From: a bacterium
Lineage (GTDB): Bacteria > Gemmatimonadota > Glassbacteria > GWA2-58-10
NCBI GenBank assembly: GCA_021372515.1
Contig: JAJFUG010000053.1
Span: forward strand, 1-32,357
Direction of reading: 5' to 3'
DNA length: 32,357 bases
The position numbers and the translations under genes are program-made. Below the pieces are notes generated by a model. The model was not told where the DNA came from. It worked only from the letters and a program-made list of their open reading frames with translations, and ran no database searches. Below, piece by piece: positions 2,197 through 25,281 of this stretch. Every line of letters begins with the position of its first letter. Position 1 is the stretch's first letter.

Positions 2197-4362
2197 ATGT
2201 TGCTGATCGGACTTGTAAACAGCCAGGATGAATCGTGGCTGCAAACCAACCTCCCAGACCGGAGCGGTCTGCGGCTTTTCTTGCATGTAAAAGCCTTTAC
2301 CTACGCTTTCTATTCCCTTATCCGCACCGATGGCCGCCAGCCTGTCCTTCTGTGCTCGGACTCTCTTTTCAGTGAGCTGCTGGGCAGCCTGCCCACCCAC
2401 GGCCTGCGCCGGGATGTGCTTCTGGGCCGGGTGATAGTGCTGCACTCGAGCCAGGCCGATCCCGCCCTTGAGCGAGAGATCGAATCGAGCCGCATGGTGC
2501 ACGGGCGCCTGGAAAGTCCCTTTGACCTGAAACAGCTGGAGTCCCTGCTGGCCGGACTGGACGACGAACTCCCGGTCAAGGCCGTCGCCGAACCGTCCAA
2601 CGCATCCACCGGGACGCCGGAGGCGAGCGGTCAGGTCGAGTTGCACCGTATCCTCAAAGACATCCGCCGGCATCAGGATAAATCCGGCGACAACCAGGAA
2701 ATGTTCCGTTGCCTCGCCCGGCACGCGCGCGCGCTCTGCCATGCCGAGACAGGCATGATGCTATCTCCCGCCCTGGGAAGCCTCTTCCTGTCGGAAAGCG
2801 GGCAGAAAGACAGCCTTCTCTGCCTGGCCAAGGGATTGATCGAAAACAGCACGCTGCCCTTCAATCACATCATTGCCAACCGTTCCACTTTCCTGCAGGA
2901 ACCTTATCGCCTGGCCCAGCTCTCGGATTTTGTCCCGGGAGCGCCCCAGATGCAATCCTTCGCCGCGGTCCCGCTGATCGAGAACGGCCGGGCCGTGGCC
3001 GTGTTGGCCGTGGCCAACAGCGTGAGCGGTGCTTTTGGCAAGGCCGGGATCAACAACCTGAACCTTCTGGCCGATATCGGAGCCATGGCCCTGGGCAACA
3101 TCCAGTCCCGTCAGCAGCTCGACAACGCCAAGCTGGACCTGAGCCAGGCCTACGAGGACCTGAACCTGACCTACCAGGACCTGCAGAACCACGTGGTCAT
3201 CGTGGACCAGCTCCAAAGCCTCGGGCGGCGTATACACGCCGCGATAGACATCCGGGTGATCCTGCGCGAGCTGGTCGAGGGCGCCCACCACCTGCTGGGC
3301 TGCGAATTCTGCCTGATCGCTTTCCGGGAAAATCCGGAACAGCATTACAATTTCTACACCAACAACGAGATCTGCCAGTTCTTCCTCGAGATGGACGGGT
3401 CGTGCCCGATCAACAACCTGCCGTTCTTCAAGGACCCCACGGCGCTGGGTGATTCCTACCTGGACAACTCACCTCCGGAGGAACTGGTCCGGCCCATGCG
3501 GCCCTACCACGTGGAGATGTCCAACATCCTGGCCGTCCCGCTGACCCAGGACAACCAGGTGTTAGGTTTCCTGGCCGGTTTCAACAAGCGGGAGGGCGGG
3601 TTCAGCTCCACCGACCGTTTCCTTATCCGCGCCCTGGCCGGCACAGCGATCACCGCGATCATGAACTCATCGCTGGTGCGCAGCATCAAGGGGCTTTTCC
3701 AGCACAGCGTAAAATCCCTGGCCAACGCAATCGAAGCGCGCGATATCTACACCGCCGGCCACACAGACAGGGTTTCGGCCTACGTGCAGGAACTGGCCCA
3801 TCAACTGGGCTGGGACAGCCAGGCCCTCGAACAGGCCTATATCGGCACGCTGCTGCACGACATCGGTAAAATCGGCATCCCGGATTCGATCCTGAGCAAG
3901 CCGGACCGCCTGACCGATGAGGAATTCGACAAGATGCGCCAGCATGTTCTGATCGGGGTGAGGATAATCAAGGATATCCCGCAGCTCGAACCGGCGAGCG
4001 ATTTTATCCGGCACCATCACGAGCGGTACGACGGGCGCGGGTACCCCGACAAACTCACCGGAGAGGATATCCCCCTGGCCGGACGGCTGGTGGCAGTGGC
4101 GGACAGTTTCGACGCCATGACCAGCGACCGTCCCTACCGCAAGGGCATGAACCTGGAACAGGCGATCCAGGAACTCAAGCGCAATTCCGGCACCCAGTTC
4201 GACCCGCGCGTGGTGGAGCTGTTCCTCTACCTGCTGGAGAGCGGGGCCCTGGACAAGCATTTCCGCAGTGCCAAAAGCGACTCGGAACCTATCCTGCAGC
4301 CCGAGAGCAACCTGCTCCTGATCAACAAGGTCACTCACAAGCTCGGTTCCAAAGCCGAATAG
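2197..4362 (+). CDS. GAF-GAF-HD-GYP sensor, probable cyclic-di-GMP phosphodiesterase
   Basis: Protein of 721 aa without membrane segments, probably a cytoplasmic enzyme hydrolysing cyclic di-GMP. Residues 1-130 look like a degenerate receiver-type domain. A GAF domain follows at about 155-300. A short heptad-rich stretch at about 305-340 links to a second GAF at about 345-490. The HD-GYP domain spans about 500-690 and holds the metal-binding HD (H554, D555) in LLHDIGKIGIP, the HHHERYDGRGYP block (GRGYP at 613-617) and the ADSFDAMTSDRPYR segment typical of active members. The gene is a monocistron convergent with the amidohydrolase gene (45-bp gap). The ligands of the GAF domains cannot be predicted. 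Confidence 0.92.
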   Translation: MLLIGLVNSQDESWLQTNLPDRSGLRLFLHVKAFTYAFYSLIRTDGRQPVLLCSDSLFSELLGSLPTHGLRRDVLLGRVIVLHSSQADPALEREIESSRMVHGRLESPFDLKQLESLLAGLDDELPVKAVAEPSNASTGTPEASGQVELHRILKDIRRHQDKSGDNQEMFRCLARHARALCHAETGMMLSPALGSLFLSESGQKDSLLCLAKGLIENSTLPFNHIIANRSTFLQEPYRLAQLSDFVPGAPQMQSFAAVPLIENGRAVAVLAVANSVSGAFGKAGINNLNLLADIGAMALGNIQSRQQLDNAKLDLSQAYEDLNLTYQDLQNHVVIVDQLQSLGRRIHAAIDIRVILRELVEGAHHLLGCEFCLIAFRENPEQHYNFYTNNEICQFFLEMDGSCPINNLPFFKDPTALGDSYLDNSPPEELVRPMRPYHVEMSNILAVPLTQDNQVLGFLAGFNKREGGFSSTDRFLIRALAGTAITAIMNSSLVRSIKGLFQHSVKSLANAIEARDIYTAGHTDRVSAYVQELAHQLGWDSQALEQAYIGTLLHDIGKIGIPDSILSKPDRLTDEEFDKMRQHVLIGVRIIKDIPQLEPASDFIRHHHERYDGRGYPDKLTGEDIPLAGRLVAVADSFDAMTSDRPYRKGMNLEQAIQELKRNSGTQFDPRVVELFLYLLESGALDKHFRSAKSDSEPILQPESNLLLINKVTHKLGSKAE

Positions 4363-6462: not shown

Positions 6463-6774
6463 CCTCGATCCCTTTGAAATTTGTGAAAGAGCAGGCGTGT
6501 TCGACATTAATTTTTTTGAATCCGCGTGCAGACACAAGAAAAATCAGCCTGCACCCGTCACTGCCGCACAACGTAATGTTTTTCGTCCCGGTTTCGCGGT
6601 TGTTGATTTTTAGCGCTGCATAATGTAATGTCATAAAACGATTGGAATGTTTTATTTTCGGGTCCTGCGGGAGCGGGTTGGAGAGGGACTTGCGGTTCGT
6701 TCGGAGCCAAGGTGGAAGCGAACGGCTCCGGCGCGGCTGCCGTCAATTCACAGCGATGCAAAGGGAAGGCTTCG
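6463..6774. other. Divergent intergenic region between UroD-like gene and cheW
   Basis: An AT-richer 312-bp region separates two divergently transcribed genes. Two similar stretches, about 6562-6578 and 6613-6630, both read roughly GC(C/T)GCA(C/T)AA(C/T)GTAATG and end in GTAATG; they could be a repeated operator or chance. A weak promoter candidate, TTGATT with TAATGT at 17 bp spacing, overlaps the second copy on the plus strand. No ORF here looks real. Confidence 0.4.
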
Positions 6775-7584
6775 ATGAGCGTGCAGACCGATGATAAAGT
6801 CCCCTTCATCCTGATCTATCTGGATGGAACAGTTTACGCATTCCCGGTGAGCAAAGTCCAGTCGATCCTGACCATGCCCCCAGTGACCGCGGTGCCCCAG
6901 TTGCCGGAGCACATGCGCGGCACGATCAATTTCCGGGGCAAGGTGGTGCCGCTGCTCGACCTGCGCTGCCGTCTGGGCCTGCGCTCCCTGCGCACGGAGG
7001 CCGATGAGCTGATCAAGCTGCTCGTGCAGCGGGAGCAGGACCATGTCAACTGGCTGAAAGAACTCGAAAGCTCAGTGCAGGAAAAAAGGCCTTTCAAGCT
7101 GACCACCGACCCGCACAAATGCGGTTTCGGCAAATGGTACGACCGCTACCGGACCGAGAACCAGGAGATCGCTTTCCACCTGAAAAAGTTCGATGAGCCG
7201 CACAAAGCCATCCACGCCATCGCCGACAAAGTCACCCGGCATGTCGGCCTGAGCGATTACGAGGCGGCCGAGGCGGTGATCCGCAAAACCCGAGACACCG
7301 ACCTGGCGCTGATGATACGCCTGTTCGCAAAAATCCGTCAGCACCTGAAAGAGGAGCTGACGGAAATTGTGCTGGTGCTGGACGGTCAGGCCGGGCGCCT
7401 GTTCGCGGTGGCCGCGGACCAGGTGATCTCGGTGGAGCACCTTCGCCTCGGCAGCCTGGTGGACCCGCCCACCGGTATGTTCCCGGGCAACGGCGACCGC
7501 GAACAGGTGGTCCGCGCCATTGCCCGCCGCCAGCAGCCGGATGAGCAGGTGGTGATCCTGGACCCGGATCAGCTCATCCTCTGA
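6775..7584 (+). CDS. CheW coupling protein with inserted CZB zinc-binding domain
   Basis: Protein of 269 aa. CheW normally links chemoreceptors to the kinase CheA. The N-terminal CheW half (about residues 8-75: FPVSKVQSIL, GTINFRGKVVPLLDLR) and the C-terminal half (about 192-269: VLDGQAGRLFAVAADQV, then VVILDPDQLI) are separated by a helical CZB (chemoreceptor zinc-binding) domain at about 78-165. The expected three-His one-Cys ligands are present: H90 (HVNWL), C116 (KCGFGKWY), H143 and H147 (PHKAIH). CZB domains bind zinc and can respond to zinc or oxidants such as hypochlorous acid. The ATG at 6775 has AAGGGAAGG upstream, so the longer frame from 6712 is disfavoured. No cheA or receptor lies nearby. 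The stop is 1 bp from the stop of the convergent next gene. Confidence 0.88.
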   Translation: MSVQTDDKVPFILIYLDGTVYAFPVSKVQSILTMPPVTAVPQLPEHMRGTINFRGKVVPLLDLRCRLGLRSLRTEADELIKLLVQREQDHVNWLKELESSVQEKRPFKLTTDPHKCGFGKWYDRYRTENQEIAFHLKKFDEPHKAIHAIADKVTRHVGLSDYEAAEAVIRKTRDTDLALMIRLFAKIRQHLKEELTEIVLVLDGQAGRLFAVAADQVISVEHLRLGSLVDPPTGMFPGNGDREQVVRAIARRQQPDEQVVILDPDQLIL

Positions 7585-23265: not shown

Positions 23266-25281
23266 TCAGGCTGTGGAGTTCCCTTCCTGAGCCCTCTGCG
23301 GCTCTTTCCCCTCCGGGGCCGGCTTGAAGATGGCGTCCATTTCGCTCTCCTCCTTGCCGGCCACCAGCGGCACGGCCAGTACAGCATCCTCGCCGTACTG
23401 GAAGCAGACCGCCTTGAACGCCTCGGTCAGCTTGAGGCTGCGGTCGAAGATGGTCACAGTGACGCCGGGGTAGACCGCGCCGAAGACCTTGACCTTGGCC
23501 TGACGGTACTCCTGCAGGCGCTCGTTCAGCTTCTCGATCTGGTGGTTCAGCTCGATCCGATCCTCTTCTTTCTCCTTTTTCAGCCGCGCCAGCAGGAACA
23601 CCTGCTGCTCCTGCTGCTTGTCGATCTCGCATTTGAGCAGCTTGGCCTGCTTGTACTTGCGTATCACCACCGCAATCCGGTCGATCTTGTCGGTCAGCAG
23701 GGCCACGTGCTCCTTGAGTTTTTCGCTCTCCTCGCTCAGTTTCTTGTTCACCCCGGCTATCACATGCGTGGGAAGGTAGTTGCGGTTGCCCAGAGTCTTG
23801 GCCTCGACCCCCCGCGCGGCCACGGTCAGTCCGCCCACAATCACGCCGTTCTTGCCCACCACGGAGAGCATCCCGGCGGTGGACACTTTGCTGTTCATGA
23901 TGTAATCGGCGATGACAATGTCGCCCTCGGCCTCGATGGTCTCGTTCTCGCAGAACAGGGCGTGCACCTGGCCCCGGGCCCGGATTGTCCCCTTGCCCCG
24001 GCCGGTGAAGCCGAACTTGATCATCACGTCCCCGCCCGACTCCACGAGCGCGTCCTCCACCACACCGCCCACCTCCACATCCTTGCGGGCGGCCACCCGG
24101 AACCCGCTCAGCACGGTCTTGCCCACTTTCACCGAGCCGACGAAATCGATATTGCCGGTGGTGTAATCCACATCGTCCTTGACCGCGAACACCGGCTCCA
24201 GCTCCAGGTTCTTGCCGCGCAGCCGCACGCACCCGTCGATCCCGGCCACAATCAGGTTCGATCTCTCCGGGTCGAACTCCATGTTCTTGCCCGCGGTGAG
24301 GTTGACCGCAGTCCCGTTGCGGGGCTGGCTCTTCCTCCCGTACACAGTGCAGCCCTCTTTGCCAGGAATGGGCGCAATGGCCTCCACCAGGGGGTCGCCC
24401 TTGCGCACGTTGTGTATCAGGCTGATGTTCTTGTAATCGACATTGCCGTCCTCATCCACTCTCGGCAGCACCTCGGTCTCGAAAAAGTAGTGCAGCACGC
24501 CGTCCTTGCCGTCCACCGGAGGCACTCCCTCGGCGATCAACACATCCTGGCCGTACATCCCCTGGTCGAAAATCTCCCTTATCCCCTCCTCCCGCAGGCC
24601 GAACACGACGCCATGGTCACGCAGGAATTCCCGAAGGTCGCTCTCGCTGTAATCTCCCGGTGCAAGCGGACGCTGGACCCGGACAGAGGCCTCGAACTCA
24701 TCCTCCCCCGGTTCGAGCACGAAAAACGGGGTCACCCGCAGCTCCACCGGGTCCGCGGTCATGTAGCCATCCACCTGGGCCACCAGGAAAGACTCGTCCG
24801 AGGGATCCGGGGAGACGTTGAACAGCTTGGGGAGCCGGGCCGGCAGCGGCTCCTGCGGGGGGACGCTCCTGCCCAGCACATCCGTGCCCGCGCGCCCCGG
24901 CTTGGGCGGGATTATCCGGGCCAGACGGTCGTTCATGCTCACCCGGCCGGGCCGCTCGATGGGCAGAAGGTACTCCAGGCGCCCGTCCTCGCCCTCCACC
25001 GGCAGCACGCCGGAGGCGATCGGTATCCTGTCGGAAGGCCGCAACCGAGCCGGGTCGGACAGCAGCTCCTCACGGAGGCCGAAAGTGATCCCTTTCAGGT
25101 GCAGCTCCTGACGGATACGCTCGGGCACCACATGCACGCTGTCGCCGACCGGCTGGATCGTGAGGTAGGCCTCCATGCTGTCGTTGCTGAGCTCCAGGTG
25201 CAGCTCGGCCTCGCCCTCGGCGGCAGCTCTCTCCGGGGGACTCGGCGGATGACCGGTATTATTTTCCTTCTGCTCAGCCAT
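23266..25281 (-). CDS. FapA/DUF342 protein with duplicated N-terminal module
   Basis: Cytoplasmic protein of 671 aa of the FapA (DUF342) family. Two copies of the N-terminal FapA module are visible: one at about 55-140 (KGITFGLREELL ... ASGVLPVEGEDGRLEY ... GRAGTDVLGRSV) and one at about 218-316 (HGVVFGLREEGI ... AEGVPPVDGKDGVLHY ... GKEGCTVYGRK). The parallel beta-helix core spans about 320-500 (GNIDFVGSVKVGKTV, GDIVIADYIMNSKV). A long Glu/Lys-rich coiled coil follows (about 510-597), then a small beta domain. FapA proteins affect flagellar assembly or cell polarity in some species; no flagellar gene occurs here. The ATG at 25281 lies inside the last codons of the CBS gene (8-bp overlap), with AAGGA upstream. 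Confidence 0.87.
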   Translation of the reverse strand: MAEQKENNTGHPPSPPERAAAEGEAELHLELSNDSMEAYLTIQPVGDSVHVVPERIRQELHLKGITFGLREELLSDPARLRPSDRIPIASGVLPVEGEDGRLEYLLPIERPGRVSMNDRLARIIPPKPGRAGTDVLGRSVPPQEPLPARLPKLFNVSPDPSDESFLVAQVDGYMTADPVELRVTPFFVLEPGEDEFEASVRVQRPLAPGDYSESDLREFLRDHGVVFGLREEGIREIFDQGMYGQDVLIAEGVPPVDGKDGVLHYFFETEVLPRVDEDGNVDYKNISLIHNVRKGDPLVEAIAPIPGKEGCTVYGRKSQPRNGTAVNLTAGKNMEFDPERSNLIVAGIDGCVRLRGKNLELEPVFAVKDDVDYTTGNIDFVGSVKVGKTVLSGFRVAARKDVEVGGVVEDALVESGGDVMIKFGFTGRGKGTIRARGQVHALFCENETIEAEGDIVIADYIMNSKVSTAGMLSVVGKNGVIVGGLTVAARGVEAKTLGNRNYLPTHVIAGVNKKLSEESEKLKEHVALLTDKIDRIAVVIRKYKQAKLLKCEIDKQQEQQVFLLARLKKEKEEDRIELNHQIEKLNERLQEYRQAKVKVFGAVYPGVTVTIFDRSLKLTEAFKAVCFQYGEDAVLAVPLVAGKEESEMDAIFKPAPEGKEPQRAQEGNSTA

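Follow-up and report, generated by a model that had tools for sequence, protein, structure and literature searches.

The window, the whole stretch of 32,357 nucleotides that was analysed, carries a gene for a CheW protein in which a CZB domain sits, according to the structure model, at the crossover between the two five-strand half-repeats of the CheW fold. The combination of CheW and CZB has already been named, and the protein of the window belongs to this CheW-CZB class. Beyond what the published texts say, the analysis adds that the CZB is nested, that this holds uniformly and that its register is fixed, though a published figure may already show the layout. We think it somewhat more probable than not that the protein serves chemoreceptor-kinase arrays as a CheW-type adaptor whose CZB is a built-in sensor. 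The features of the gene are listed in Table 1.

Table 1. Features of the CheW-CZB gene, in positions of the window
Feature	Position	Strand	Residues	Remarks and evidence
CheW-CZB gene	6775..7584	+	269 aa	ATG 6775, stop TGA 7582-7584, one open frame
N-terminal CheW half	6796..6987	+	8-71	five model strands; Pfam CheW, model, 2ho9 alignment
Ser30, at E. coli CheW Glu38 position	6862..6864	+	30	Glu in 33/75; 2ho9 alignment
Arg54, corresponding to E. coli CheW Arg62	6934..6936	+	54	Arg in 67/75; 2ho9 alignment
Nested CZB helical insert	6988..7359	+	72-195	Pfam CZB 90-153, model, 3t9o match
His90, predicted zinc ligand	7042..7044	+	90	His in 74/75
Cys116, predicted zinc ligand and redox-sensitive thiolate	7120..7122	+	116	Cys in 75/75
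His143, predicted zinc ligand	7201..7203	+	143	His in 74/75
His147, predicted zinc ligand	7213..7215	+	147	His in 75/75
C-terminal CheW half	7360..7581	+	196-269	five model strands; model, 2ho9 alignment

Perera 2021 (PMC8262984) splits 10,140 CZB proteins into seven subgroups, of which CheW-CZB makes up 1.4% and is commonest in Clostridia; PMC10653840 refers to CheW-CZB as an architecture already known. The subgroup resembles the window protein in being one soluble protein with CheW and CZB and a Cys-x-Phe-Gly motif; the texts of these two papers describe no function, nested layout or fixed register for it. The residue after the Cys is Ala in 65 of the 75 full-length sequences compared below and Gly in the window; in the CheW-CZB proteins of PMC8262984 this place is Ala or poorly conserved. 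A full-text search met the name CheW-CZB in these two papers only, no functional experiment on any such protein was found, and a search of the literature for CheW domains with an inserted CZB was without result.

The initial annotation had assigned positions 6775-7584 to a CheW protein interrupted by a CZB domain; the coordinates are correct, and the division of CheW by the insert is borne out by the Pfam matches, the alignment with E. coli CheW and the structure model. A purine-rich ribosome-binding site, AAGGGAAGG, lies 5 nt upstream of the ATG at 6775; an alternative in-frame GTG at 6712 would give a longer protein and is the less likely start. Two separate genes or a frameshift are ruled out by the single open frame. 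The region upstream of the gene holds only weak repeats, and a search for regulatory elements there found no convincing promoter or terminator. An imperfect 17-nt direct repeat (GCCGCACAACGTAATGT / GCTGCATAATGTAATGT, start-to-start distance 52 nt) is located at 6563-6631 of the window.

Both Pfam scores exceed their curated cut-offs. CheW (PF01584) matches with 8.1e-23 and 81 bits against a cut-off of 23.5, its best stretch comprising residues 11-80 (profile positions 2-69 of 138), and CZB (PF13682) with 1.4e-13 and 51.5 bits against a cut-off of 29.4 at residues 90-153, within the residues 78-165 in which the initial annotation had placed the domain. No other Pfam family is matched at E <= 0.001, and thus no receptor or GGDEF domain, so that the protein falls into the CheW-CZB subgroup as defined by CheW and CZB in one protein. 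In these regions the NCBIfam equivalogs for DgcZ and CheW give weak matches that stay well below cut-off. Aligned with E. coli CheW (2ho9), the family profile matches at its positions 5-68 and again at 194-268, so that the second CheW half is real.

The AlphaFold2 model, for which 67 members of the family were used (mean pLDDT 93.2, pTM 0.86), places five strands (residues 8-62), a helical block (63-194) and five further strands (198-262) in this order; the helices of the insert span residues 72-102, 117-124, 130-137, 140-158 and 162-194. The first and last CZB helices run straight into the two CheW halves, and a loop of the C-terminal half around residues 231-240 is modelled with lower confidence. 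In Foldseek searches CheW structures match the whole chain across the insert (TM-score 0.77-0.83, normalised to the target), both halves matching so that the CheW fold is complete, and the helical part matches the CZB domain of DgcZ (3t9o) with a TM-score of 0.76-0.78 (normalised to 3t9o) and an rmsd of 2.8-3.3 A over about 120 columns. These two sets of matches are the reason for placing the CZB domain at the CheW crossover. The structure prediction that the initial annotation had proposed as a check thus returned the DgcZ CZB fold for the insert.

The four residues that had been named as CZB ligands, H90, C116, H143 and H147, align with the zinc ligands of 3t9o and form a 3His/1Cys set in the DgcZ register; the spacing of 27 residues from C116 to H143 had also been given correctly and equals the Cys-to-His spacing of DgcZ. 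From the superposition on 3t9o and the alignment, the four ligands are predicted to be clustered. Neither of the outcomes that the initial annotation had named as refuting was seen. A planctomycete relative (L081:7971-8792) carries Thr and Tyr in place of the zinc histidines 90 and 143, and its zinc site is probably broken.

The family was collected with a query made from a two-sequence alignment, the window protein and L057, in a scan of 84,980 species genomes. This gave at least 168 confirmed relatives, a lower bound set by the seeding with exact motifs, of which 80 were kept; conservation was counted in 75 full-length sequences, the window protein included. The two search patterns contain H90 and C116, so that the conservation of H143 and H147, which lie outside the patterns, is not an artefact of the search. 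In each of these 75 sequences, which come from at least 18 phyla, the CZB is nested in the same way, and all 67 members scanned with Pfam (E <= 0.001) have both domains and no other family. Chance or mis-annotation is ruled out by the Pfam matches, by the model and its fold matches, and by the presence of both domains across the family.

The spacing on the N-terminal side of the insert is constant: D62, at the end of the N-terminal half in its last CheW strand, is followed by H90 after 28 residues in 74 of 75 sequences, and the distance from H90 to C116 is 26 in all 75. On the C-terminal side the spacing is variable, with H147 and D215 lying 66 to 72 residues apart. Because the 28-residue register is fixed across at least 18 phyla, the alignment suggests a rigid helical connection, a lever rather than a loose tether. 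The CheW residues G49, R54, D62, R64 and D215 are kept in the family.

In a tree of the family, which covers 18 named phyla, Bacillota form one group and several other phyla are scattered, a pattern that fits transfer or loss alike; the placement of the window sequence is not firm. In 40 sampled genomes of the closest relatives the matches covered the CheW part alone, and among 200 genomes of the same phylum one other CheW-CZB was found.

In CheW of the F7 class an Arg62-Glu38 pair is invariant and aligns the receptor and kinase sites, an alignment that is needed for signalling (PMC3828127). The window protein keeps the arginine as Arg54 and has Ser30 in place of Glu38, and because of this Ser30 we do not count it among the canonical CheWs of the F7 class. 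A profile comparison of 55 CheW-domain stretches that lack a CZB, taken from the same phylum and including some kinase domains and second halves, shows the Glu38-equivalent in 38 of them. Since the Glu38-equivalent is absent, the window copy may not be an ordinary coupling protein; as a speculation, it is possible that the CZB domain replaces the Arg62-Glu38 salt bridge as the aligning element. A gammaproteobacterial clade on a long branch (L123, L130, L131, L133, L136) has Gln in place of Arg62, with EFQG instead of NLRG.

The host genome (4.87 Mb in 222 contigs, 99.5% complete, the window being contig C53) holds no CZB match besides this gene. CheW profiles match at 15 places; three CheA genes are recognised as CheW frames with a CheA-type HATPase, on C109, C177 and C220, and there are about 12 receptors (12 strong matches) and the flagellar export gene FlhA. 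The CheA frame on C220 (L139:1151-4459, G000:C220; 1103 aa) shows CheW matches in three pieces, which make up two CheW-like domains; about 35 residues in the middle part of the first are left unmatched. The gene upstream of CheW-CZB encodes a URO-D-family protein on the opposite strand, and downstream follow a protein without Pfam match and a DUF4097 protein. Elsewhere in the window are an HD-domain protein with GAF domains (2197-4362), possibly a c-di-GMP phosphodiesterase of the HD-GYP type, and a FapA-family protein (23266-25281).

Neither cheA nor a receptor gene was found in the window, as the initial annotation had said. In 43 loci of relatives the gene is flanked by 7 kb or more on either side, and in 5 of these a che or receptor match of 1e-15 or better lies nearby; action in trans therefore looks like the rule in the family. 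A partner in a local operon was rejected, since none is present in the window and such partners are rare among the relatives. One of the rare linked members is an Ignavibacteria CheW-CZB (L125:7950-8756), which a cheA-cheW-cheR cluster follows about 4 kb downstream. Judged from gene content, action in trans on a CheA of the host is plausible, and the earlier suggestion to this effect gains support from the three CheAs, the receptors and the other CheWs of the host, as well as from the mostly orphan relatives.

For an adaptor with a built-in sensor the following course is proposed. The predicted site would bind one zinc via 3His/1Cys, as in DgcZ and TlpD, and loss of the zinc or oxidation of Cys116 would loosen or shift the helices. 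Precedents are a simulation of DgcZ, in which the CZB helices alpha1 and alpha5 move differently once the Cys is oxidised and zinc is released (PMC8262984), and crystal structures of TlpD, in which the helices on either side are displaced when one His-Zn bond is lost (preprint PMC12871147). The receptor tip binds CheW where its subdomains 1 and 2 meet (PMC6952110), and in the simplest model a shift of the helices would change the position of this groove between the subdomains relative to the kinase-binding site, so that the zinc or redox state might alter CheA output or the integrity of the array. The target of CheW-CZB, reached in trans, would be one of the three CheA systems of the host. That chemical information enters a CheA array in this way, with no dedicated receptor, is plausible; the signal may be zinc, an oxidant or neither. 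Counted against an adaptor that senses are Ser30, the presence of Glu in only 33 of 75 sequences at its position, the low-confidence loop around residues 231-240, the orphan genes and the Gln clade.

The known systems share some of these traits. The E. coli diguanylate cyclase DgcZ (3t9o, 4h54) has the same CZB fold, four ligands and 27-residue Cys-to-His spacing, but its CZB domain is N-terminal and controls a GGDEF enzyme, whereas that of the window is inserted within CheW. TlpD, the cytosolic chemoreceptor of H. pylori, likewise links a CZB domain with a Cys-Zn site to CheA arrays, with the domain at the C-terminus of a receptor instead of on the adaptor. According to PMC10653840, the spirochete CheWS (CheW-CheRlike) also joins a CheW adaptor to a putative sensor domain, but this is another domain, fused end to end and not nested. 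FrzB, a divergent CheW of Myxococcus, departs like the window protein from the canonical coupling features; it is without two strands and without a sensor domain (PMC6952110), in contrast to the CheW-CZB of the window with five strands per half.

FrzB also serves as a precedent for the strongest alternative, which is unlikely but has several points in its favour: the protein would modulate the array rather than relay a signal, the CZB domain dimerising two CheWs and thereby cross-linking or capping CheA-CheW rings, or the protein binding receptors without coupling to CheA, as FrzB acts without CheA binding (PMC6952110). CZB domains form homodimers via alpha1, as in DgcZ (PMC8262984), the Glu38-equivalent is gone in the window and in half of the family, and most of the genes are orphans. 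Most members nevertheless retain Arg62 and the CheW core, and the model with five strands in each half shows no strand loss of the FrzB type. That the insert carries a structural zinc and merely stabilises or localises CheW, with no sensing, is quite improbable. The affinity of CZB for zinc is sub-femtomolar in DgcZ (PMC8262984) and was estimated likewise for TlpD (PMC6715182), so that a permanently occupied site is possible, but CZB regulates the output in both of these studied proteins, and the conserved Cys116 together with the fixed register over 18 phyla suggests, without proving it, more than bulk stability. An exit from chemotaxis, with a CheW-like scaffold using CZB in another pathway, would suit the lack of adjoining che genes in most members and the Gln for Arg62 in the gammaproteobacterial clade, but is very unlikely in view of the three CheA systems and flagellar export gene of the host and the retained R54 and D215.

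A nested CZB domain also occurs in a CheA of the same phylum (L049:1-2523, G150:C200), which has Hpt, a dimerisation domain, HATPase and a first CheW-like domain with CZB (residues 501-563) nested between its halves, followed by a second CheW domain. The CheA of a relative, G223, matches both flanks of this insert side by side without the insert itself, and the CZB of L049 looks for this reason like a clean insertion. In the CZB-domain tree L049 stands on a very long branch between groups, which fits a common origin with the CheW-CZB insert or the contrary alike. CheA-CZB is absent from the seven subgroups described in the text of PMC8262984.

Tentatively, and with considerable doubt, CheW-CZB may be viewed as a widespread, receptor-independent zinc or redox lever in the CheW crossover that would tune the receptor-kinase geometry and replace the Arg62-Glu38 pair. 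The crossover would then be a natural entry point for sensory inserts, as is suggested by the insertion of CZB at the same junction in CheA. The fixed register gives a precise mechanical model for such a lever. Input to chemoreceptor arrays is thought to pass mainly via receptors; a conserved adaptor with a sensor would, if true, be a second input route across phyla, and CheW-CZB thereby bears on the question whether CheW is an active signalling element or a passive scaffold.
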